IMG/VR virus record: IMGVR_UViG_3300010153_000064
Coordinates: 1 to 29,576 of that record
From: a virus
DNA: 29,576 bases
Reading direction: 5' to 3' (one strand)
Shown: positions 662 to 29,050 of the stretch, in pieces
Layout of the letters: each line of letters opens with the position of its first letter
Numbering within the stretch: position 1 is the stretch's first letter
The notes under the pieces: generated by a model
Databases searched by the model: none
What the model saw: only the letters and a program-made list of their open reading frames with translations
Told to the model about the DNA's origin: nothing
Made by a program: the position numbers and the translations under genes

Positions 662-921
662 TGGACATTGTGCAAATAATTTCCGAGTTTGGTTTTCCTG
701 TAGTAATGGTCGTAGGGTTAGGGTATTTTGTATACTTTGTTTGGCAGACAATTACCAACAAAATTGATCCGGCTGTGCAAGAAATGAAGGTAACTATTAT
801 AAGATTAACTGATCAATTAAGGTTACTAGATCAAGATATGATAAGATTACAACAAAAAGTAAATACAGTACTAGAACTAAAAGAAGAAAATAGGTTAAAG
901 GATGATGAAGAAATTTTGTAG
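661..921 (+). CDS. small single-span membrane protein with coiled-coil tail (paralogue B)
   Basis: An 86-residue protein. MDIVQIISEFGFPVVM leads into one hydrophobic segment (about residues 13-30), then a predicted coiled coil (IIRLTDQLRLLDQDMIRLQQ) and an acidic end. Topology and motifs match the 98-residue protein at 199-495, so this looks like a local duplication with a third small membrane gene trapped between the copies. Its 3' end overlaps the start of csgF by 20 bases, tying it to the curli operon. It could be a holin, or an inner-membrane partner of the secretion system; the sequence does not decide. Confidence 0.78.
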   Translation: MDIVQIISEFGFPVVMVVGLGYFVYFVWQTITNKIDPAVQEMKVTIIRLTDQLRLLDQDMIRLQQKVNTVLELKEENRLKDDEEIL

Positions 922-1345
922 TGTTGTAGTGTTAATACTAAGTAGTTTAGTACATGCAGATGAATTATTGTTTAAATTTAAAAGTCCTAGCTTTTCAGGA
1001 ATAAATTCTTCTTCACATTACTTAACAATTGAAAACCAAGAAAATACTAGGCGCGGCACAATTAAACAAGAACGTGAAGCTGAGTTAGATGCTATAGAAC
1101 GTGAAGAAAACAACTCAACTTTAGCTAGGTTTATGAGAAATTTTGAATCTAGGGTGTATGCACAGTTAAGCAGACAATTGGTAGAACAACTTTTTGGAGA
1201 AAACCCAAGCACGGAGGGTAAATTAGAATTAGAGGGTAATTTAATAGAGTATGTAGTAGCAGAAGAGACTGTTACACTTACAATTACGGACGAAAATAAT
1301 GGTCAAACTACTATTACTATTCCTGTGGGGGACTTTACTTTCTAG
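902..1345 (+). CDS. csgF: CsgF-like curli assembly factor
   Basis: A 147-residue exported protein. A signal peptide (residues 1-19, cleavage after VHA) is followed by FKFKSPSFSG at 24-33, the counterpart of the FQFRNPNFGG segment at the mature N-terminus of E. coli CsgF, which plugs into the CsgG pore. A helical region (RFMRNFESRVYAQLS, 76-90) and a beta-rich end with GQTTITIPV match the rest of CsgF. In the known system CsgF caps the CsgG channel and couples secretion to fibre nucleation at the cell surface. Translation could start at either of two adjacent ATGs (902 or 905). It is followed by csgG, as in a minimal curli locus. No csgE- or csgD-like gene is visible. Confidence 0.93.
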   Translation: MMKKFCSVVVLILSSLVHADELLFKFKSPSFSGINSSSHYLTIENQENTRRGTIKQEREAELDAIEREENNSTLARFMRNFESRVYAQLSRQLVEQLFGENPSTEGKLELEGNLIEYVVAEETVTLTITDENNGQTTITIPVGDFTF

Positions 1346-2099
1346 TTGTGCGTCTAGAAATTTACTAGAAGGAAGTGGTATCCCTAATGTAATAATAAAA
1401 GATGCCTCTGTTCTGTCGTTACAATCAGAAGAATTAAGGGATATACTTCCAGCAAAGCGTAAACCTGTAATTGCTATTTATGCTAATAGCTTGCAAGACT
1501 TAACAGGCCAACGTAAAAGTAATGGTAGCTTTGCTATGTTTTCTACTGCTATTACACAAGCTCCCGAAGCATTTTTAATTCGTGCGTTAAAACATACTGC
1601 GAGCGGAAAATTTTTTAAAGTTACAGAAAGAGTTGGTTTAGATTCACTTACAAAAGAACGCCAGCTAATTCGCAGCACACGTGATAATTTTGATGAAGAA
1701 AGTAAATTAAAGCCTTTATTATTAGCGGGTTTGTTAATGCAAGGAGGAGTAATAGGCTATGATTCTAATACTTTTTCAGGAGGAGCAGGAGCTCGAATGT
1801 TAGGTATAGGAAGTTCAAAACAATATAGATCTGACTCAGTTAGTGTATCATTAAGATTGGTCAGTGTGTCTACAGGAGAAGTACTACTAGAAGTTCTTAC
1901 TTCAAAAAGTATTTTATCCGTTAGTCTTTCACAAGATGTGTTTAGATTTGTAGACATAAATGGTGCTAGTTTAATTGAAATGGAGGGAGGTATTACTGCA
2001 AACGAAAGCACCTCAATAGCTTTACAAAAAGCAATCGAAGCAGGAGTATTAGAAATGGTAAAAATAGGTATTAGAAAGGGGTATTGGGAATATGAATAA
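1299..2099 (+). CDS. csgG: CsgG-like outer-membrane curli secretion pore (lipoprotein)
   Basis: A 266-residue lipoprotein. A hydrophobic signal with lipobox LSSC gives lipidation at Cys17. Family blocks are clear: DLTGQRK (68-73), FSTAITQ (81-87), GVIGYDSN followed by GGAGARMLGIG (150-171), VSTGEVL (190-196), VFRFVDI (214-220), GYWEYE at the end. CsgG forms a nonameric outer-membrane barrel that exports curlin. Phe81 appears to be the counterpart of the pore-constriction Phe of E. coli CsgG, while the neighbouring Asn position looks like Met. The protein ends at the GxW motif and lacks the longer C-terminal tail of E. coli CsgG. The start is fixed by the need for the signal peptide, which is encoded inside the last 47 bases of csgF. 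Confidence 0.95.
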   Translation: MVKLLLLFLWGTLLSSCASRNLLEGSGIPNVIIKDASVLSLQSEELRDILPAKRKPVIAIYANSLQDLTGQRKSNGSFAMFSTAITQAPEAFLIRALKHTASGKFFKVTERVGLDSLTKERQLIRSTRDNFDEESKLKPLLLAGLLMQGGVIGYDSNTFSGGAGARMLGIGSSKQYRSDSVSVSLRLVSVSTGEVLLEVLTSKSILSVSLSQDVFRFVDINGASLIEMEGGITANESTSIALQKAIEAGVLEMVKIGIRKGYWEYE

Positions 2100-2823
2100 A
2101 ATTACTTGGTTGTTTATGTATACAACTACTTTAGCATATTTGTGTAGTGTGTACAGTTACGCAGCAGATAACGAAATATATGTAGACCAAGTAGGCACAA
2201 CTACGGTTAATATAGACCTTGAACAATTAGGAAGTGGGAACATTATAGGGGGTTTATTAGCGGCAGCTGGTTCTATGACGGCGCTTGATCTTGATGGAAC
2301 CTCAATGACTTTAGATATAAATCAAATTGGAGACACTAATAAATTCCTGGGGGATATGTATGCAGATACATACACTGGTTACTTTAACTTTGATGGTGAT
2401 ACCAACACGTTCACATCTAAAATGGATCCGACCAATGCGTTTGGCGCAGATGGTTCAAATGTTAATGTGCAAGTGACGGGAAATACTAATGCTATGACTC
2501 TTGATTTAGCAACAACTGCTTTAGCTAGTAGTACAGACCTTGATTGGACTATTAACGGAGCGAGTAATACAATTGACGTAGACATTGATGTAGATACAGC
2601 AACTCATTTTTTAGACATAGATGGGAGCAGTAATAATATAAATACAGATATGGACGGGTACGCAAACGGTTATTTTTATTTAGATCATACAGGGAACTCA
2701 AGGACATTTACAATTGATCAAGCAAGTACACAAGCTAGAGATTGGGTGCGTATTACTTCTAATGGTAACAATGGTACAGTTTGTGTTAACCAAAACGACC
2801 AGGGCACAAGTGTCGCTTGCTGA
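2092..2823 (+). CDS. curlin-like amyloid fibre subunit
   Basis: A 243-residue secreted protein with a signal peptide (residues 1-24, ending YSYA). The mature part is Asp/Asn/Thr/Gly-rich with short beta-strand repeats spaced by Gly-x-x-Asn turns: VDQVGTTTVNIDLEQLGSGN, LDINQIGDTNKF, VQVTGNTNAMTLDL, WTINGASNTIDVDI, LDIDGSSNNINTDM. The first units keep the curlin Q-x-G-x-x-N pattern and later ones are degenerate. The C-terminus has two Cys (NGTVCVNQ and a terminal Cys). It has no obvious Gly-rich N22-type targeting segment as in CsgA. Lying directly behind csgG with an 8-base overlap (ATGAATAA), it is the obvious cargo of the pore. It could be nucleator or major subunit. The SD-like AAAGGGG lies about 10 bases upstream. 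Confidence 0.82.
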   Translation: MNKITWLFMYTTTLAYLCSVYSYAADNEIYVDQVGTTTVNIDLEQLGSGNIIGGLLAAAGSMTALDLDGTSMTLDINQIGDTNKFLGDMYADTYTGYFNFDGDTNTFTSKMDPTNAFGADGSNVNVQVTGNTNAMTLDLATTALASSTDLDWTINGASNTIDVDIDVDTATHFLDIDGSSNNINTDMDGYANGYFYLDHTGNSRTFTIDQASTQARDWVRITSNGNNGTVCVNQNDQGTSVAC

Positions 2824-3844
2824 AGATATAGGAAGTATTACACAATTAAACGGTAATACTAGAGTAGTTAGAGACAAACCCTACGAAAGTGCAATCGACT
2901 TTTCGCTTAATTCTATGGACCGTTTAGAAACGGCTGCAGGTAGAATGGGTGTAACATTTCGAGACAACACTACGATACGTTTGACTGAAAACTCAAACGT
3001 GGTTATTGATTCTTTTATCTTTGATCCAGAACCAAATAAATCAAGTATGGCTCTTAATTTTGTAAAAGGAACTGGGAGGTTTATTAGTTCTAAAACAAAA
3101 CGTATACCAAAAGAAAATATTAAAATACGTACACATGCAGCCACCGTAGGGATTAGGGGTACGGACTTTACAATAACTGTAAAAGAAACAGGCGAAGCTC
3201 TTATAATTTTACTGCCAGATGAGTTTGGTAATAGTTCAGGAGAGATTTCTGTAACCACGGCCCTCGGTCAAGCAATATTAAATAAACCCTACGAAAGCAC
3301 AACTGTATATAATTTTGAAACCGCACCTACTACACCTGCTGTACTTAATTTAACGCTGGATATGATTGACAATATGTTGATTATTAATCCCCCTGAAACA
3401 AAAGAATTAGAAGTTAATGAAGATAAATCAGTAGCAGATAATTTACTTGATGTAGACTTTCTTGAGTTTGATGAATTAGAACAAGATGCTCTAGAAGAAG
3501 ATAACTTAGAGTATCAAGAGTTAGATATAGACTATTTAGCGGGTAATTTTTTAGAAGATTTGCTTGATGTTATACAAGAGATTGATGCTTTATCTAAGGC
3601 TGATAAAGCTTTAGGAGAGAGTGGTATACAAGGGACTGCAATAGGATACGATGCTGAAACACAGATTAGTACTTTTGTTAACGATACCGAAGCAAAGTTT
3701 ATAAGACAAATAGAGGACTCAGTACAAATGCAAGTTAATAAAAACGATTCTGTATCTATTGTTATTGAACAAGAAGGTAAGGTAAACAGAGTTTTAAATA
3801 ATGGAGGAACTTCCTCTCGTATTACAATAAGACAAGGCAGCTAA
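2714..3844 (+). CDS. exported FecR-domain protein with curlin-like C-terminal repeat
   Basis: 376 residues from a TTG start preceded by AAGGA; an in-frame ATG at 2762 is the alternative. A hydrophobic segment at about 12-25 followed by TRAQ suggests an export signal. Residues 38-156 form a FecR domain, with DIGSITQLNGNTRVVR at the front and the family-typical AATVGIRGTDF near its end. A long acidic Leu/Asp/Glu-rich segment (about 225-290) follows. The last 40 residues contain SIVIEQEGKVNRV and RITIRQGS, which fit the curlin pattern S-x4-Q-x-G-x-x-N. FecR domains are usually periplasmic. Here the protein may bind or nucleate the fibre (inference). It overlaps the curlin gene by 110 bases in another frame. 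Confidence 0.83.
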   Translation: MIKQVHKLEIGCVLLLMVTMVQFVLTKTTRAQVSLAEDIGSITQLNGNTRVVRDKPYESAIDFSLNSMDRLETAAGRMGVTFRDNTTIRLTENSNVVIDSFIFDPEPNKSSMALNFVKGTGRFISSKTKRIPKENIKIRTHAATVGIRGTDFTITVKETGEALIILLPDEFGNSSGEISVTTALGQAILNKPYESTTVYNFETAPTTPAVLNLTLDMIDNMLIINPPETKELEVNEDKSVADNLLDVDFLEFDELEQDALEEDNLEYQELDIDYLAGNFLEDLLDVIQEIDALSKADKALGESGIQGTAIGYDAETQISTFVNDTEAKFIRQIEDSVQMQVNKNDSVSIVIEQEGKVNRVLNNGGTSSRITIRQGS

Positions 3845-3845
3845 C

Positions 3846-4091
3846 ATGGCACGTAATTATCAAAATGAATATAGAAAATATCAAGGCACTACAGAACAGA
3901 AAAAAAGAAGAGCGATGCGTAATGCAGCTAGAAGAAATGCAATACGTAACGGCACGGCCCGGAAAGGAGATGGTAAGGACGTACATCATGTAGATGGTAA
4001 TCCTATGAACAACTCGCCGAGAAATACTAGAGTAGTATCAGCAAGTAGCAATCGTTCTTTTAAACGCGACCGTTATGGACGAAAAGCTTAA
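3846..4091 (+). CDS. small HNH-like protein
   Basis: An 81-residue, strongly basic protein. The C-terminal half contains DVHHVDGNPMNN followed by NTRVVSASSNRSF, the layout of the beta-beta-alpha HNH fold (HH, DG, N) seen in many phage proteins. The N-terminal half is Arg/Lys/Asn-rich and could bind nucleic acid. The domain is short, and it is unclear whether all metal ligands of an active nuclease are present. It starts one base after the FecR-protein stop, so it closes the plus-strand operon. Its stop overlaps by four bases with the stop of the convergent minus-strand gene. Confidence 0.72.
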   Translation: MARNYQNEYRKYQGTTEQKKRRAMRNAARRNAIRNGTARKGDGKDVHHVDGNPMNNSPRNTRVVSASSNRSFKRDRYGRKA

Positions 4092-13614: not shown

Positions 13615-14091
13615 ATGGCTACAATAGCAAATTTAACAAAAAGCGGTAACGTTGAAGGTAATCAAGCATATAAACATTTTCCTTCAGGCGGTATGTTCGT
13701 GCGTAAAGCAACAATTACAACTGGCACTTTAGTTCTAAACGATGTAATACAGTGTCTTGACATGTTTGCAGGTGAAACACTACATGGCATTCGTATGGCA
13801 GTAACTGATATTGATACTGGTGGTTCTCCAGCAGTTGTACTTGATGTAGGTTATGGTAACAGTGATTCTGCTACTGCATCTACATCTGACGATATTGTTG
13901 ATGGTTCAACTATTGGTCAAGCAGGTGGATTCGTTATAGCTAACGTATTCTCTGCAGACGAAGACGCTGGTACAGCATTTGCTGCAGGTCCATTAGACTT
14001 TTCGGCTGATGATACAATTGATGTTCACGTACAAGTAGCTCCTGCTACAAGTGCAGCTGGAACAATTACAATGTATGCGTACATAACTTAA
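13615..14091 (+). CDS. beta-rich putative structural/decoration protein in its own cassette
   Basis: 158 residues, rich in Ala, Thr, Gly and Asp with alternating hydrophobic strands (FVRKATITTGTLVLNDVIQC, VVLDVGYG, GGFVIANVF, IDVHVQVAPATSAAGTITMY). No signal peptide and no Cys-rich or catalytic motif. The composition is that of a small virion surface or decoration protein; I infer that role from composition only. It is the sole plus-strand gene inside a minus-strand block and has its own promoter (13541-13568) and terminator (14129-14156), the layout of a moron-like cassette that can be expressed apart from its neighbours. Confidence 0.72.
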   Translation: MATIANLTKSGNVEGNQAYKHFPSGGMFVRKATITTGTLVLNDVIQCLDMFAGETLHGIRMAVTDIDTGGSPAVVLDVGYGNSDSATASTSDDIVDGSTIGQAGGFVIANVFSADEDAGTAFAAGPLDFSADDTIDVHVQVAPATSAAGTITMYAYIT

Positions 14092-16445: not shown

Positions 16446-16621
16446 TTGTTGCTCCATAAAATATAAAAACAAATACCGATTAAAGAAATTACTGTAAGTA
16501 AAGTAATAGTGTGATGTAACGTAGCAACTATGCCTAATACACCAAGCATAGCAATAGCACCATATAAAATTGAATTTTTGTACTCATTTAAGAGTTGTTT
16601 ACATTTGGACAATTTCACCAT
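16442..16621 (-). CDS. small two-span membrane protein
   Basis: 59 residues from the ATG at 16621 (MVKLSKCKQLLNEYKN), with GGAG about ten bases upstream, inside the end of the VWA gene (23-base overlap). Two hydrophobic segments: about 19-34 (ILYGAIAMLGVLGIVA) and 37-56 (HTITLLTVISLIGICFYILW), with a short basic start. Two-span topology with a tiny hairpin loop is compatible with a holin, which I infer only weakly. Translationally coupled to both neighbours. Confidence 0.66.
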   Translation of the reverse strand: MVKLSKCKQLLNEYKNSILYGAIAMLGVLGIVATLHHTITLLTVISLIGICFYILWSNK

Positions 16622-17723
16622 AAGGAGCCTCCGTGGCTTCTGTTGTAACCCATAACACAGGATAATCAGGTTGTTCACCAAAATCCCATGCTTCTAGATC
16701 TGTTAGATAAACTAATGCACATACATTAGGATATTTTTTATTTACATAATCAATAGCTGGCCCAAACGCAGTACCACCACCACCACCGTATTTTACTTTA
16801 AGAGGTAAGTCCTCACGGGTGTATGTAGTATCGTCATGGACTTCAGTATCGCATTGTATAAATCGAACTAACTCAGGATTTAAGTCATGTAAGATACTGG
16901 TAATTTCACCAGTAAACTGTTCGAGATACTCACGGCATGATCCAGAAGAATCACCAACTATAGCGATCTCACCTAACGAAGGATTATATAGTGAAGGTAA
17001 GTACATACCTTGTGCAATAAACCTACGATTGGGTTTAGCCCATGAAAAGTCAGACTTGTTGTTGGCACGTAAAAATCTAGCAAGTACCATTTTCCAATCG
17101 ACTTTAGGAGCTAAAGCTTTTTCTACTAACTCTTGCATGTGTCCTGGTAATTTACCTACACCCTTAGCTACTTCAGCAGCTTGTTGTATAGCTATATTAG
17201 TATCAGCTTCAAATTTACCAGTACCTGAACCTTCGGCTAACGATTCATGGTCGATCACTCCACCGCAACCACCAGGATCAAATCCTTCTAGTAGTGCTAC
17301 ACCAGATATAGGATCATCACCTAGATCTTTAGGCAGTTTGTTATACACATCTTCGGTGCTATGATCTTCGTATTGTTCATCATATAGCTCACCATGCGGT
17401 AGTATAAGACCACACTTTCTGAGAGCTAAGTTGATGACATAATCACCGGCAATGTTCCACCGTTTGGGATCGCGTTCCATACGGCGTAACATATGCAGTA
17501 GCACAACATGCATTACTTCGTGAGCTATAAGCCCAACACGTTGTGCTTCGGTAAGTTTAAGAAACCATTTAGGATTAAACTTAATGTACTGCCCGTTAGT
17601 ACAGGCAGTTTCAATAGTCTCATCTTCAATAGGTGTCAAACGTAACGCTAGAGTACCAAAGAAAGGCTGATCTAAAATTAGACGAGCACGAGCTTTGGTA
17701 TAAGCTTGCATTGCTTCGGACAT
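16599..17723 (-). CDS. metallopeptidase-like/VWA-domain protein (DUF2201 type)
   Basis: 374 residues with two modules. The N-terminal module has an intact zinc-peptidase motif HEVMH (68-72) followed by WNIAGDYVINLAL, the usual downstream Asp. The C-terminal module is von Willebrand A-like, with the MIDAS sequence DSSGS (258-262), GGGGGT (313-318) and YLTDLEAWD (339-347). Bacterial proteins of this plan (DUF2201) pair with MoxR-type AAA+ ATPases; such a gene lies at 18586-19602 with one gene in between. The pair may act as a chaperone/remodelling machine on a metal-dependent complex (inference). Ends inside a cluster of small membrane genes. Confidence 0.88.
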   Translation of the reverse strand: MSEAMQAYTKARARLILDQPFFGTLALRLTPIEDETIETACTNGQYIKFNPKWFLKLTEAQRVGLIAHEVMHVVLLHMLRRMERDPKRWNIAGDYVINLALRKCGLILPHGELYDEQYEDHSTEDVYNKLPKDLGDDPISGVALLEGFDPGGCGGVIDHESLAEGSGTGKFEADTNIAIQQAAEVAKGVGKLPGHMQELVEKALAPKVDWKMVLARFLRANNKSDFSWAKPNRRFIAQGMYLPSLYNPSLGEIAIVGDSSGSCREYLEQFTGEITSILHDLNPELVRFIQCDTEVHDDTTYTREDLPLKVKYGGGGGTAFGPAIDYVNKKYPNVCALVYLTDLEAWDFGEQPDYPVLWVTTEATEAPYGEIVQM

Positions 17724-18574
17724 TAATTATCTCCTAATAAGGAAGAAGTAAGAATAGTATTATTAAGATTAGCAGCTGATACAGCTTCATCAGCAGCAAG
17801 TTTTAATTTTTGTTGTTTACGTTTACGTTGTTGCTTTTCGTTGACTTTAGCCATATGGTTTGAAGTAACAAGCTTACTGATACCAGGCCAAGCTTTTAGT
17901 GCTTGGTTAAGTGTAGTAAATTGAGTTAACAAATCTTCTAACTTGCATATTTCATATTCTCTTTGTAGTTTAGCTTTTTTGTATTCTAAATCCAAAGCAG
18001 TAATATTAGATAATGTAGTGGAAGCAGCAACTTCAGAAGAAGTAAAATATAACTCTAAGGGACTAGGGTCATAGCTATTGTAATGACATGGCACTACAAC
18101 TTCTTTAGATAAAGGAATACTTATTTTTCGATAATCAGTATCTTTTATAGCTATTGCAACTGGACCATCTGCTCTAGCAGCATTCCTAGTACGTAGCATG
18201 TCAACTGTTTGAGTATGATCTCCAGTATCAACTGCATACCAAGCACATTCTGATAAAGGTAAATTTATCCAAAGTTTTGTAGTATGAGAAAAATATTCTT
18301 TAGGATATTTTTGACCAGAACGTACACAACCTCCTTCAGGGTTGATTTTGTTTTCTAGTTTTATATTATTATATAATGGATCTGATATATAAGTTTCAGT
18401 ATGTGCTAATAATGGAAACATATATTGGTCATATAGTTTGTCACCATCAGTTGCATCATACGCAGGACCATTATAACCAGCATTATTTAAAACTGGACTA
18501 GTGCGTTTATAGGCACTTTTATACTCATTTACAATATGAGATTGTAGAGCCATAGACATTCTAACTGTAGACAT
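17723..18574 (-). CDS. hypothetical protein between MoxR and VWA genes
   Basis: 283 residues. The front has aromatic-rich, mixed alpha/beta sequence (KLWINLPLSECAWYAVDTGD about 109-128; ISIPLSKEVVVPCHYNSYDP about 161-180). A long coiled coil follows (about 196-225, LEYKKAKLQREYEICKLEDL), then FTTLNQALKAWPGISKLV and a basic Lys/Gln/Arg-rich, Ala-rich tail. The coiled coil plus the LxxAWPGI end recalls uncharacterised proteins of large phages, but I cannot name the family. It shares a base with the VWA start (TAATG) and lies 11 bases after MoxR, so it is likely the third partner of that system. Confidence 0.65.
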   Translation of the reverse strand: MSTVRMSMALQSHIVNEYKSAYKRTSPVLNNAGYNGPAYDATDGDKLYDQYMFPLLAHTETYISDPLYNNIKLENKINPEGGCVRSGQKYPKEYFSHTTKLWINLPLSECAWYAVDTGDHTQTVDMLRTRNAARADGPVAIAIKDTDYRKISIPLSKEVVVPCHYNSYDPSPLELYFTSSEVAASTTLSNITALDLEYKKAKLQREYEICKLEDLLTQFTTLNQALKAWPGISKLVTSNHMAKVNEKQQRKRKQQKLKLAADEAVSAANLNNTILTSSLLGDN

Positions 18575-18585
18575 TGCATTCTCCT

Positions 18586-19602
18586 CTATAGAATTACATT
18601 AGAATTTTTAGACACCCACGATGTAATCGCGGCATTATTTAGAAGTGTTGAATCAACACCTAACGAACTTTTGATACCAACAACTTGAAACTCGACTGGT
18701 AATTTCTCAATTACTTTTACGATATTAGTTATTTTAGTATCACAGGCTTGAGCAGCCAGAGCACCTGTAAGTGCATACAGTACCGCTGGATTGTCGTCCT
18801 TTTTGTAGGTACTTGGGTTAGCAATCAACTCATCTATATCAGGCAATGATGTACAGATTTGTCTGAAAGCCATATATTCCCCAGCAGGCCCATCACCGAC
18901 AAGTGATGAAACTCCATAAAAGAGTCGGTCTTCGTCAACTTTTGGTAATTTCAACCGTTTGTCTACGAATGACCAGCTACGAGGAGTTGGGAAAGCATAA
19001 CTCTCTGGATTGAAGTCATACAATAAGCCAGGACGATATCGTAAGAACGAAATCAAAGTCGAGTCTATATTGTTGGCATTAGCCCATGTGCACCAGTCCT
19101 CGAGGCTAGCTTCGAGTTCATAGTGGGCAAGTCTATTTCTTACAGGTGATGGCATTTGATAAACTGCAGCGGCATCAGTAAGTCTGTTACCAGCGGCAAT
19201 CATAGACCACCCATCAGGAATGCGGTAATTACCGACTTGACGGGTGAGTAGTAGTTGAAGGAACGCATTTTGTGTAGCCGGCGGTGCAGTTGGTAATTCA
19301 TCAATCATAAATATACCGCGTTTACCATCGCGTTCAGCAATTGGAAATATGTCAGGCACAGCCCAACGTGTAAAACGTTTGTTAGTTCCTGTTTGCTGAG
19401 CCACGTACGGTACACCACGTACGTCAACAGGATCGAATAAGTTAGCACGAAAATCTAACAAAGTTATGTTACGTTCCGCAGCACATTGTTGTGGTATTTC
19501 TGACTTACCAATGCCGGGTCCGCCCCATATCATAGTGTTAAGATTTGCTAACATATTGTCGAATATTTCAGCAACTAGTTTTGAAGGTCGAATTGCGTGC
19601 AT
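18586..19602 (-). CDS. MoxR-type AAA+ ATPase
   Basis: 338 residues. Walker A WGGPGIGKSE (26-35), a loop ANLFDPVDVRGVPYV typical of the MoxR/dynein-related branch (53-67), Walker B FMIDELPTAP (98-107), AAGNR as sensor 1 (136-140) and SPVRNRLAH with the arginine finger (152-160). Such ATPases remodel partner complexes and normally work with a VWA-domain protein, here encoded two genes downstream. Cytoplasmic. It starts 14 bases after the small gene at 19617-19832, in the same transcript. A good ribosome site (GAGGAG) is placed about eleven bases upstream. Confidence 0.92.
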   Translation of the reverse strand: MHAIRPSKLVAEIFDNMLANLNTMIWGGPGIGKSEIPQQCAAERNITLLDFRANLFDPVDVRGVPYVAQQTGTNKRFTRWAVPDIFPIAERDGKRGIFMIDELPTAPPATQNAFLQLLLTRQVGNYRIPDGWSMIAAGNRLTDAAAVYQMPSPVRNRLAHYELEASLEDWCTWANANNIDSTLISFLRYRPGLLYDFNPESYAFPTPRSWSFVDKRLKLPKVDEDRLFYGVSSLVGDGPAGEYMAFRQICTSLPDIDELIANPSTYKKDDNPAVLYALTGALAAQACDTKITNIVKVIEKLPVEFQVVGIKSSLGVDSTLLNNAAITSWVSKNSNVIL

Positions 19603-25146: not shown

Positions 25147-25286
25147 CTATTTATGATTTATTAAAAAAGGTGAAGACTATGTATGGATATGGGAAAAAAA
25201 CTAAACTAAAGAAAGCAAAACCACCAGCAGCAAGACCAAAAGCAAAAGCTAACAAGAAAGCAAAAAAAACTAAAAAGAAAATGTAG
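25140..25286 (+). CDS. tiny Lys/Ala/Pro-rich protein, histone-tail-like
   Basis: 48 residues: MLTIYDLLKKVKTMYGYGKK then a tail of Lys, Ala and Pro (PPAARPKAKANKKAKKTKKK). The tail looks like an eukaryotic H1-type or bacterial histone-like tail and would bind DNA non-specifically. The ATG overlaps the previous stop and its last base is the G of the TerL GTG, so it is embedded in the packaging operon. Role unknown; charge neutralisation of DNA is a guess. Confidence 0.58.
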   Translation: MLTIYDLLKKVKTMYGYGKKTKLKKAKPPAARPKAKANKKAKKTKKKM

Positions 25287-26932
25287 TGGAAATAGCTAAA
25301 ACAGAGTGTGTAAGGTGTAAGGCTTTACACCCTGAAACTTTATACCCGTCTGATGATAAAATTTGTGTGTACTGTAAAGCAGATGAAGCGGAACGGATAG
25401 AAAAACCGCCAGTAAAGATAAGTAAAAAAGAACAGCAGAAGATAACTCAAGAAGCTGCCGCACAACGTGAACTAGCGCTGCGTGCACTTGCACGTAAACA
25501 CATGTTACCTTTTGTAGAGCGATTTGATTCTAATTATCAAGCAGGCTGGGTGCATAAAGATATCTGTCAAAGACTAGAACAATTTAGTCAAGACGTAGCA
25601 GATAGAAAATCCCCTAGGTTAATGTTATTTATGCCTCCTAGGCATGGCAAATCGACCTTGGCTAGTGTAGCGTTTCCCGCGTGGCATTTAGGTAGAAACC
25701 CAGAACACGAATTTATTAGTTGTTCCTACTCCGGTTCATTAGCTATGTCTTTTTCTAGAAAAGTTAGACATCAACTACGTGAACCCAACTATAAAAATGT
25801 ATTTAGTGGGGCATCTTTAGATCCTACTTCGCAATCAGTAGAATCATGGTTGACTACAAAAGGTGGTGGTTATGTAGCGGCAGGTGTTGGTGGTGGTATT
25901 ACAGGTAAAGGGGCCCATGTACTGGTAATAGATGATCCGGTAAAAAACCGTGAAGATGCAGAGTCTGAATATAGTCGCGCTTCAGTCTGGGATTGGTATA
26001 CATCAACTGCGTACACACGTTTAGCTCCAGGCGGAGGGATACTAGTTATTTTAACGCGATGGCATGATGATGATTTAGCTGGAAGGTTATTACAAGCTGC
26101 AGCTGATGGTGCAGACGAATGGGAAGTTGTTAAATATCCTGCAATTGCGGAACAAGACGAAGAATTTAGGTTAGAAGGTGATGCATTACATCCTGAAAGA
26201 TATGACATACCTTCTTTGGAAAAAATACAAAGAGCAATAGGACCAAGGGATTGGTCAGCACTATACCAGCAAAATCCAGTTGCCGATGAAGGGGATTATT
26301 TCAATAGAGAAATGATAAACTACTATGATGAACCTGATTTAGATTATACTAGATTACGTTACTATTGCGCTTGGGATTTAGCTATTGGACAACGTGAACG
26401 CAATGACTATTCTGTAGGTTTAGTTGTAGGTGTTGATGAATATGATAAATTGTATATAGTAGATTGTGTACGTGGTAAATGGGATGGGTTTGAGTTAGTT
26501 GAACGTATCTTAGATTTGTATGAAACTTGGCGACCAGGAGTAGTTGGTATTGAAAAGGGACATATTGAAATGGCTCTGGGTCCGTTTTTGGAAAAACGAG
26601 TTAGAGAACGTAGGTTAAATGAAGCATACTTTAGAGACTTAAAGACAGGTAGGAGAGATAAAGAAGCAAGAGCACGGGCAATTCAAGGTCGGATGCAACA
26701 AGGCATGGTATACTTTCCAAAAGAACCGCTTTGGGTAGGACCTTTAATAGCAGAATTATTACGTTTTCCTAACGGAGTACATGATGATCAGGTAGACGCT
26801 CTAGCGTGGATTGGTTTGATGATGACAGAATTTGCAACATATATTGAACCGATTGAACATATTCCGTCTTGGCGAGATAAGTTAGACAGTATTGCTAAGG
26901 GTGATAACAAAAAAACAGCAATGAGCGCATAA
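25286..26932 (+). CDS. terL: terminase large subunit with N-terminal zinc ribbon
   Basis: 548 residues from a GTG start. Residues 8-30 hold CVRC and CVYC, a CxxC-x15-CxxC zinc ribbon not usual for TerL. The ATPase has Walker A MPPRHGKST (116-124), Walker B HVLVIDDP (211-218) and the coupling motif LTRWHDDDL (256-264). The RNase H-like nuclease shows CAWDLAIG (Asp363), GIEKG (Glu422) and HDDQVDALAW (499-507). The motor cuts concatemeric DNA and pumps it into the head through the portal encoded next. One base-free junction (TAAATG) joins it to the portal gene. Confidence 0.95.
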   Translation: MEIAKTECVRCKALHPETLYPSDDKICVYCKADEAERIEKPPVKISKKEQQKITQEAAAQRELALRALARKHMLPFVERFDSNYQAGWVHKDICQRLEQFSQDVADRKSPRLMLFMPPRHGKSTLASVAFPAWHLGRNPEHEFISCSYSGSLAMSFSRKVRHQLREPNYKNVFSGASLDPTSQSVESWLTTKGGGYVAAGVGGGITGKGAHVLVIDDPVKNREDAESEYSRASVWDWYTSTAYTRLAPGGGILVILTRWHDDDLAGRLLQAAADGADEWEVVKYPAIAEQDEEFRLEGDALHPERYDIPSLEKIQRAIGPRDWSALYQQNPVADEGDYFNREMINYYDEPDLDYTRLRYYCAWDLAIGQRERNDYSVGLVVGVDEYDKLYIVDCVRGKWDGFELVERILDLYETWRPGVVGIEKGHIEMALGPFLEKRVRERRLNEAYFRDLKTGRRDKEARARAIQGRMQQGMVYFPKEPLWVGPLIAELLRFPNGVHDDQVDALAWIGLMMTEFATYIEPIEHIPSWRDKLDSIAKGDNKKTAMSA

Positions 26933-29050
26933 ATGGCATATAAAAAATTTAAAGAAAAACTCAGCAAAGCAGAACAACATGAATTAGCCCGTACTCAGTG
27001 GGCAGCCTACACTAGAGCACGTGACAACGGGCATCAAGACTATGTAGAAATAGCAAGGCAATGTGATGCTTTTTACCGTGGACAACAATGGGATCATGGT
27101 GATATTTCAGCACTTGATGATCAAGGTAGACCCGCTCTTACTATTAATACTATATTACCTACTATTAATGCTGTACTTGGTGAACAAAGTACACGGCGTA
27201 TGGATGTAAACTTTAAACCTCGTGGTAGAGGCAAACAAGAAGTTGCGGATGTACTTGATCGGTTGTTTATGCAAATTGGTGATAATAACAAATTAGATTG
27301 GACTGAGTCCCAAGTTTTTGCTGATGGCTTAATTCAAGATCGTGGTTGGTTTGATGTACGTATAGATTTCGATGATCATATTCAAGGTGAAGTACGTATA
27401 ACTGCTAAAGACCCTTTAGATGTTTTAATTGATCCTGATGCTAAAGAATATGACCCGCGTACGTGGAACGAGATTTTTGAAACAAAGTGGATGAGTCTTG
27501 ATGAAATAGAAGAAACCTACGGACAGAAAAAAGCAGACCAGTTACGAGTTGCGGTAGAAGAAGGTTCTGTTTTAGGTACAGATTCAGTTGAGCATGAAGA
27601 AAACAGATATGGTGATACAACTACAGGTGTAGAGTATAACCAAGGTAACACTTCTAACCCTGAAGAAAATAGATCTTTACGTGCTGTACGAGTTATTGAA
27701 CGTCAGTACTATAAATTAAAAGAGTGCATGTACTATGTGGATAGTGTTACAGGTGACATGCGCGAAGTTCCATATGTATGGAGTAAAAAGAAACGCGAAA
27801 GTTTTGCGGATCAGTTTGGTTTAGAAATTCTTACTAAACTAGTACGTAAAGTACGTTGGACTACTACTGCAGATACTGTGGTACTTAATGATACTTGGTC
27901 GCCATATGACCATTTTACTTTAGTACCTTACTTTCCTTACTGGAGACGAGGTAAACCATTTGGAATGGTACGAAACCTTATTTCTCCACAAGAACAACTT
28001 AATAAAATTTCCTCACAGGAATTACATATTGTAAATACAACAGCTAATAGTGGTTGGATTGTAGAGACAGGTTCTTTACAAGGTATGACAGCAGATGACT
28101 TAGAAGAACATGGTGCAGAAACAGGTTTAGTCTTAGAATTTAACCGTGGTTCTAGTCCTCCTGCTAAAATACCGCCTAATCAAATACCAACAGGTTTAGA
28201 TCGTATTGCTCAAAAAGCAGCTGCTAATATAAAAACTATTAGTGGTATAAGTGATGCGATGTTAGGTACAGATAGTCCAGAAGTATCTGGTATAGCAATA
28301 CAACAAAAACAAAACCGTGGTGCTATGATGATTCAAGTACCATTAGATAATTTAACTAAAACTAGACAGTATTTGGCTGAGAAAGTATTAAACTTAGTAC
28401 AGATGTATTACACCGAAGAACGTTTAATACAGATTACAGATGAACAAGATCCACAGAAACAACGTCAACCAATGCGAGTAAACCAAATGACTCCAGAAGG
28501 TTTAATTTTAAATGACCTTACTTTAGGAGAGTATGACGTTATTATAGCTACCGCTCCATCCAGAGATACATTTGAAGAAATTCAGTTTGCTGAAGCTATT
28601 CAGTTACGTCAAGTTGGAGTGCCAATTCCAGATGATTTGATAGTAGAGTACTCGCACCTAGCTAGAAAAGGAGACATTGCAGAAAGAATACGAGCAATGC
28701 AAGGTACTAACCCACTTACTCCAGAACAAGCTGAACTTCAGCAGTTCCAAGCTCAAGCAGCTATTCAATCTACGCAACTTGAAATTGCTAAGCTAGAAGC
28801 TGAAGTACAGCAATTACAATCTATGGCAATCCTTAATCAAGCTAAAGCTCAAGAAACTGCAGAAATTGATCCACAATTGAAGATGGCAGAAATGCAGAGT
28901 AGAATTGCCATTAAACAAGAAGAACTAGCTCTACGTGAAAGGTTATCTCAGATGACTAATCAAGTTAGAACTGGACAAAGTGAAACCCAAGCAGCGTCAA
29001 AAGTAGCCGTTGCTGCAATGAAACCCACAAAACCTACAGGAGGTAGCTAG
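26933..29050 (+). CDS. portal protein, P22-like
   Basis: 705 residues, the size of the P22-type portal family. Typical parts: FYRGQQWDHGDISALDDQGR and PALTINTILPTINAVLGEQS (about 45-90), KDPLDVLIDPDAKEYDPRTW, FTLVPYFPYWRRGKPFGMVR with ISPQEQLNKISSQELHIVN, and GISDAMLGTDSPEVSGIAIQ near the crown region. The C-terminus (about 600-690) is a long Gln/Ala/Glu-rich coiled coil (QFQAQAAIQSTQLEIAKLEA), like the barrel of P22 portal. Twelve copies form the DNA entry ring at one capsid vertex and bind TerL. The family points to a short-tailed virion. Confidence 0.92.
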   Translation: MAYKKFKEKLSKAEQHELARTQWAAYTRARDNGHQDYVEIARQCDAFYRGQQWDHGDISALDDQGRPALTINTILPTINAVLGEQSTRRMDVNFKPRGRGKQEVADVLDRLFMQIGDNNKLDWTESQVFADGLIQDRGWFDVRIDFDDHIQGEVRITAKDPLDVLIDPDAKEYDPRTWNEIFETKWMSLDEIEETYGQKKADQLRVAVEEGSVLGTDSVEHEENRYGDTTTGVEYNQGNTSNPEENRSLRAVRVIERQYYKLKECMYYVDSVTGDMREVPYVWSKKKRESFADQFGLEILTKLVRKVRWTTTADTVVLNDTWSPYDHFTLVPYFPYWRRGKPFGMVRNLISPQEQLNKISSQELHIVNTTANSGWIVETGSLQGMTADDLEEHGAETGLVLEFNRGSSPPAKIPPNQIPTGLDRIAQKAAANIKTISGISDAMLGTDSPEVSGIAIQQKQNRGAMMIQVPLDNLTKTRQYLAEKVLNLVQMYYTEERLIQITDEQDPQKQRQPMRVNQMTPEGLILNDLTLGEYDVIIATAPSRDTFEEIQFAEAIQLRQVGVPIPDDLIVEYSHLARKGDIAERIRAMQGTNPLTPEQAELQQFQAQAAIQSTQLEIAKLEAEVQQLQSMAILNQAKAQETAEIDPQLKMAEMQSRIAIKQEELALRERLSQMTNQVRTGQSETQAASKVAVAAMKPTKPTGGS

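Follow-up and report, generated by a model that had tools for sequence, protein, structure and literature searches.

A curli-type gene module at the left end of a phage contig

We analyzed a stretch of viral DNA of 29,576 nucleotides (positions 1 to 29,576 of IMG/VR record IMGVR_UViG_3300010153_000064; hereafter the window). Its left end carries, on the + strand, a module related to curli (type VIII) secretion with the gene order TM1-TM2-TM3-CsgF-CsgG-fib1-FecR. Three small transmembrane (TM) protein genes precede genes for a CsgF homolog, a CsgG homolog, a curlin-like fiber subunit (fib1) and an exported FecR-fold protein. An earlier reading made from the letters of the DNA (the sequence-only reading) had placed CsgF, CsgG, curlin-like and FecR genes here. 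All four are present where it put them, and profile searches identified CsgF, CsgG and FecR. It had described the cargo and FecR genes as following without gaps. They are contiguous, but that description understates the arrangement: nearly all of the genes overlap, CsgF and CsgG by 47 nucleotides (nt), CsgG and fib1 by 8 nt, and fib1 and FecR by 110 nt, and, in the window as in relatives, the 3' ends of the preceding genes also encode the CsgG and FecR signal peptides.

The CsgF homolog (positions 902 to 1345, + strand) matches PF10614 (E=4.5e-19) and phrog_35372 (E=5.1e-39) and, weakly, the solved CsgF of E. coli (PDB; phmmer, E=0.0098). Its signal peptide is followed by FKFKSPSFSG, an N-terminus of the CsgG-binding type. 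The CsgG homolog (1299 to 2099, + strand), an outer-membrane secretion pore lipoprotein, matches PF03783 (E=1.9e-45), a check that the sequence-only reading had proposed, and its residues 49-265 align with the solved E. coli CsgG (PDB; phmmer, E=1e-42). The lipobox is LLSSC, with Cys17 invariant across 7 phage homologs. We applied the residue numbering of the E. coli constriction (Tyr51, Asn55 and F56) to the phage CsgG alignment. Conserved pore-side features are TGQ, GGxGAR and the hairpin strands, and podophages keep an aromatic residue at the F56 position. CsgE (PF10627), which the sequence-only reading had reported as missing, was not found in the window, in a 57-kb relative (contig G003, described below) or in 6 other contigs searched.

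The fib1 gene (2092 to 2823, + strand) encodes a protein of 243 amino acids (aa) with a signal peptide, an NEIYVDQVG start, a beta-ladder and a C-terminal pair of cysteines (C231 and C243) that is invariant in 43 sequences. An AlphaFold model gives a confident beta-ladder (pLDDT 85.4, pTM 0.81), whose best matches are viral 'Curlin associated' models (BFVD, E=2.8e-5). Two of 7 fib1 orthologs reach the Pfam curlin repeat (Curlin_rpt, PF07012), the better with E=8.6e-6.

The three small membrane-protein genes at 199-921 were overlooked in the sequence-only reading, and two of them belong to the conserved module. TM1 (199 to 495, + strand) encodes a 98-aa protein with a single TM helix (KD19 peak 2.18 at residue 11) and a coiled-coil-like part; it belongs to phrog_18771 (E=1.7e-23) and has no Pfam family. 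TM3 (661 to 921, + strand; 86 aa, single helix) is a second phrog_18771 protein (E=8.8e-26) and weakly resembles the holin family phrog_4898 (E=5.1e-4). Between them, TM2 (479 to 661, + strand), an open reading frame (ORF) for a 60-aa membrane protein, is optional, with homologs in 15 of 100 surveyed stretches. TM1 occupies the position of a gene published as a 'histidine kinase'. No HisKA, HATPase or other kinase family was found in Pfam for the TM proteins of the window and its relatives (86-98 aa). As judged from their sequences, the published label, to which they can be compared by gene position only, is not supported for these versions.

Conservation of the module in viral contigs

A profile scan of viral contigs yielded at least 588 CsgG relatives. 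Among 100 contig stretches, CsgG is found in 98, a fiber gene in 97, CsgF in 95, a TM gene in 90, FecR in 81 and an adenylate cyclase gene in 46; these counts are approximate, as a few stretches overlap or share a contig, several break off within the module, and some cyclase matches lie on the opposite strand. The sequence-only reading had suggested looking for the same gene order in related phages, and about 100 stretches share the order TM(-TM)-CsgF-CsgG-fiber-FecR(-cyclase). Because a fiber gene accompanies CsgG in 97 of the 98 CsgG stretches, and FecR is this frequent even though many stretches end inside the module, we conclude that pore and cargo are retained together.

Overlap of the genes is also common. 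In podophages the overlaps, called by longest ORF, are mostly 47-101 nt for CsgF/CsgG and 86-212 nt for fiber/FecR, whereas in two myophage types CsgF and CsgG abut. We considered selection on the fiber/FecR overlap and rejected it: synonymous variation is not reduced there (0.496 vs 0.504), and the hydrophobicity of the shifted frame is not peculiar to the overlap. We therefore read the overlaps as compaction only.

In a CsgG tree, phage-type sequences form one group, separate from four bacterial ones (support 100/99; long branches). A bacterial CsgF match in G111 (L121) was missed by the model built from phage sequences. Phage or probable phage contigs with the module have been binned into bacterial metagenome-assembled genomes labeled Maricaulis, Rhodobacteraceae, Flavobacteriaceae and Pelagibacter (L027-L030; L125-L127, L129), and they may mislead searches for bacterial curli. 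We do not accept such matches as bacterial ancestors. L027 and L030 lie among recognizable phage genes; the module in L028 and L029 is of the phage form, and we class both as probable phage contigs. We also set aside OR851715.1, an unannotated 1,499-bp record named 'Salmonella phage S.Kent 1-2-1' that encodes a CsgG at 40% identity (tblastn) and is possibly host DNA deposited as phage.

The FecR-fold protein

The FecR-fold protein (2714 to 3844, + strand; PF04773, E=2.2e-12; phrog_37870, E=1.8e-64) is called from a TTG at 2714, although its true start is uncertain. It has an acidic linker and a conserved C-terminal beta motif, in which Q353, G355, N363, G364, G365 and Q374 are invariant in 46 phage sequences. 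Part of its predicted structure, a model of low overall confidence (pLDDT 58), matches the cell-surface-signaling domain (CSSD) of PupR (E=1.3e-4). None of 7 FecR homologs has an anti-sigma domain in Pfam; the periplasmic-type FecR fold is present. No FecI-type sigma factor was seen among the window proteins in a general scan, in which no search was aimed at sigma factors.

Across 398 Pseudomonadota genomes, full-length matches to the protein are limited to phage-type contigs of one genome (G014). The best other matches cover about positions 30-206, without the C-terminal part, and many lie in open frames of more than 1,000 aa. In the bacterial cases inspected, the FecR domain is near the N-terminus and is joined to low-complexity linkers, and the long proteins have adhesin-like sequence. 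Because the best relatives in bacteria are long proteins that resemble adhesins and the anti-sigma part is missing, the label 'iron regulator' seems doubtful for this protein. Its apparent kinship with adhesins favors, but does not prove, a surface-structural role over that of an iron switch. Such doubts are of consequence, since published hypotheses were steered toward regulation by the labels 'histidine kinase' and 'iron regulator'.

In Pseudomonadota genomes (L160-L166), very long adhesin-like proteins have a FecR-like domain of the phage type close to their N-terminus, behind a conserved segment of about 100 aa (LLLRADF...GYF...LAGP). A limited literature search located no publication on FecR domains in RTX adhesins.

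Phage identity and gene context

The window comes from a marine podophage. A separate 57,239-bp podophage contig (G003) holds the entire window, from which it differs by 29 mismatches over 29,576 bases. It spans the module, replication genes, the terminase large subunit gene (TerL) and a P22-type portal gene. In the window, TerL lies at 25286 to 26932 (+ strand; PF03237, 3.8e-19; phrog_38, 3.2e-124) and the portal gene, which the sequence-only reading had recognized alongside the module, at 26933 to 29050 (+ strand; PF16510, E=2.3e-121). That reading had raised the prospect that the left part of the contig is a bacterial chimera. We reject this, as the near-identical G003 joins the module to TerL and portal and the gene order is shared by about 100 stretches.

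The genes of G003 run in one direction in the order TerL, portal, further structural-type genes, a gene for a 2547-aa protein with a lysozyme-like start, tail-fiber-like genes, a holin-like gene, a phage lysozyme gene, genes for two more tail-like proteins, the curli module and, last, an HNH gene. The replication genes are mostly oriented opposite to the TerL, portal, tail, lysozyme and module genes. Profile checks in this layout covered the holin-like protein (phrog_1544) and the lysozyme (PF00959, 7.6e-8). The HNH endonuclease-like gene (3846 to 4091 in the window, + strand; PF13392, E=4.9e-6) occupies the site where many relatives have an adenylate cyclase gene. G003 has neither a cyclase gene nor a second fiber gene.

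The module is usually close to lysis genes in podophages. We surveyed 53 loci in which the sequence ahead of the module extends for 2.5 kb or more. Within 2.5 kb, 37 of them have a holin-like gene and 24 a lysozyme gene; 'holin-like' is judged here from position and membrane helices (phrog_1544 has no known function), and the 53 loci are mutually related. In many of them the holin-like gene abuts the first TM gene. For the window lineage, the distance from the lysis genes to the downstream module is about 3.7-4.1 kb. At four loci, Rz/Rz1-like spanin genes and a lysozyme gene directly follow the module (profile confirmation for one); no spanin was recognized in G003. The module lies at the distal end of what looks like a late unit of structural and lysis genes and is probably made late in infection. 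Its usual place near endolysin and holin-like genes in podophages also suggests that it is expressed late. The word 'holin' has 0 occurrences in the paper on podophage modules (Wittmers et al. 2022, PMC9599517).

HTVC023P-type podophages are defined by a PolA at least 45% similar to that of HTVC023P or HTVC027P. The window phage has a PolA with 24% identity to that of HTVC027P over 320 aa (E=3e-5), a TerL with 34% identity and a capsid without a match, and on these comparisons it is outside the HTVC023P type. Judged by portal, TerL and PolA, the deposited phages closest to it include Pseudomonas KPP25/phiR18-like phages, Aeromonas phiA008 and Rhizobium phages, none of them above 50% identity. 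Among contigs with the module, one (G011) is of the HTVC023P type (PolA 52%), another (G766) has a window-type PolA (84%), and nine others match the HTVC027P PolA weakly; the module is also present in two Kyanoviridae myophage types. Thus, the module occurs in at least three phage lineages and probably in four or more.

Elsewhere, profile scans of the window found genes for PolA, an SNF2-type helicase, a PD-(D/E)XK nuclease and a VapE/DUF5906-type protein. At 16599-19602 on the - strand, genes for a DUF2201 metallopeptidase/VWA protein (5.7e-55), a 283-aa protein and an AAA ATPase-like protein adjoin, an arrangement that resembles a MoxR-VWA pair. A single + strand gene at 13615-14091 (158 aa, no Pfam match) stands amid minus-strand replication genes. 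An Rfam scan of the window found no riboswitch or other known RNA.

A possible late surface fiber

The module is the podophage form of the type VIII secretion module of marine phages. We think it reasonably likely that it provides a late pore through which a curlin-like fiber is exported to coat or link infected cells. The CsgG lipoprotein would form the pore in the outer membrane, with CsgF placed on its outer mouth, and the beta-ladder protein encoded by fib1 would be exported as the fiber subunit and polymerize. The FecR-fold protein might act with pore and fiber at the envelope or cell surface, where an anchor or assembly partner seems likelier than an iron-responsive transcription regulator. 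The paired single-helix proteins are probably inner-membrane parts. Made late, the fiber could coat or link infected cells shortly before or at lysis. Possible benefits include aggregation or capture of neighboring hosts, masking of receptors and superinfection exclusion.

Several observations weigh against this proposal. Without CsgE, export would require a different gate or none. However, CsgE is also absent from published phage modules, and its absence therefore bars a complete E. coli-type system but not a phage subtype. fib1 alone misses the Pfam curlin repeat, and its model has no fold match in the PDB below E=0.1. The late timing is read from gene position alone, in 16 of the 53 loci these models detect no lysis gene within 2.5 kb, and promoter-like sites are no commoner than in shuffled sequence. 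In addition, infected OM43 cells showed no clumping (Buchholz et al., PMC9004378).

One variant, compatible with a late surface fiber, is that the FecR-fold protein is a secreted, nucleator-like (CsgB-like) partner whose C-terminal beta motif is a curlin-type rung. The invariant residues of that motif and the terminal strands in the model would fit this idea. As a curlin repeat the motif fails: the curlin-repeat matrix is not significant, with 83 of 1000 shuffles reaching the score of the window protein, and profile-profile comparison with the fibers gives about 2% probability. With the low confidence of the model as well, we regard a nucleator as possible but doubtful.

CsgG-CsgF might instead be a lysis device: repurposed as a gated pore in the outer membrane or as a pinholin-like part, it would time lysis or assist it. 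On grounds of synteny and structure, a lysis role was proposed for the module of myophages (Buchholz et al. 2022, PMC9004378). The nearby holin-like and lysozyme genes of most podophage loci, the weak resemblance of the upstream TM proteins to a holin family and the lack of a recognized spanin in G003 are all consistent with such a device. However, a bare pore has no need of the fiber gene that is nearly always linked to it, nor of the usual FecR gene; the phage already encodes a lysozyme and a holin-like protein; and at least four relatives have the module plus Rz/Rz1-like spanins. We consider this role unlikely. Outer-membrane permeation, one of the functions offered by the sequence-only reading, is likewise made less likely as the main role by the linked fiber gene and by separate genes for lysozyme, a holin-like protein and, in some relatives, spanins.

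Least probable, we suspect, is an uptake aid in which an ungated CsgG pore admits larger nutrients, cofactors or siderophores to the periplasm and FecR is an iron-linked sensor (options in PMC7029224 and PMC9599517): the missing CsgE cap and the PupR-like fold agree with it, but CsgF and cargo would be superfluous, the FecR protein lacks an N-terminal anti-sigma domain in Pfam and has adhesin-like best bacterial relatives, and the gene position looks late, not early.

Returning to the surface fiber, we speculate, with considerable reserve, that the module is a lysis-linked amyloid island in several unrelated marine podophage lineages, its fiber secretion genes being joined to holin-like and endolysin genes. 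A dying cell might be wrapped in a phage-made curli-like fiber that traps neighbors or covers receptors on debris; the TM pair and the FecR-fold protein would be phage-specific assembly parts in place of CsgE and CsgB. A secretion system and extracellular fiber given by a virus would alter the effect of infected cells on their neighbors, beyond the mode of death. The module is widespread, crosses unrelated phage lineages and, in podophages, usually lies by lysis genes. This neighborhood makes timing and purpose testable, as a late coat or a late pore.

Comparison with known systems

The curli module was described in pelagimyophages in 2020 (Zaragoza-Solas, PMC7029224) and in the myophage Melnitz in 2022 (Buchholz, PMC9004378), and CsgF-CsgG-CsgA/B-FecR without CsgE was described in HTVC023P-type podophages in 2022 (Wittmers, PMC9599517). 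The sequence-only reading was therefore right in its identification and in recalling reports from myophages, but the combination of podophage, FecR and no CsgE, whose novelty it implied, had already been published. The roles that it offered (clumping, blocking other phages, a part in lysis) had all been proposed previously as well. The window shows the module in a further podophage lineage, and the module itself is already known.

The published pelagiphage module (HTVC023P-type podophages and pelagimyophages, PMC9599517) agrees with the window in the order small gene(s)-CsgF-CsgG-CsgA/B-FecR and in having no CsgE, CsgC or CsgD. The window phage differs from the HTVC023P type in PolA, TerL and capsid, in having no adenylate cyclase or second fiber gene, in the HNH gene that follows, and in upstream genes without a kinase domain. 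HTVC008M (Pelagibacter) and Melnitz (Methylophilales), both Kyanoviridae, share with the window, in identical order, paired TM genes and homologs of CsgF, CsgG (45% identity), fiber and FecR (33-34%). In contrast to the window phage, they are myophages of 141-147 kb with a second fiber gene, a cyclase gene, and abutting CsgF and CsgG.

Among bacterial systems, alphaproteobacterial curli operons resemble the window in having CsgF-CsgG beside curlin-repeat proteins. TM, FecR and cyclase genes of the phage type are absent from the four loci examined, whose CsgG branches apart from the phage clade. E. coli CsgG-CsgF (PDB 4uv3, 6l7a, 6lqh) is of the same pore family, but Tyr51 and Asn55 are not conserved at the equivalent positions, CsgE is absent and the fiber protein has diverged. 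FecR anti-sigma regulators, which combine a cytoplasmic anti-sigma domain, a TM helix and a periplasmic FecR domain, share the periplasmic-type FecR fold with the window protein, but in Pfam the latter is without their anti-sigma domain. Relative to the module papers of 2020-2022, the new points are that the podophage module tends to lie beside lysis genes, that the 'HK' label is open to doubt and that the FecR domain is akin to adhesins.

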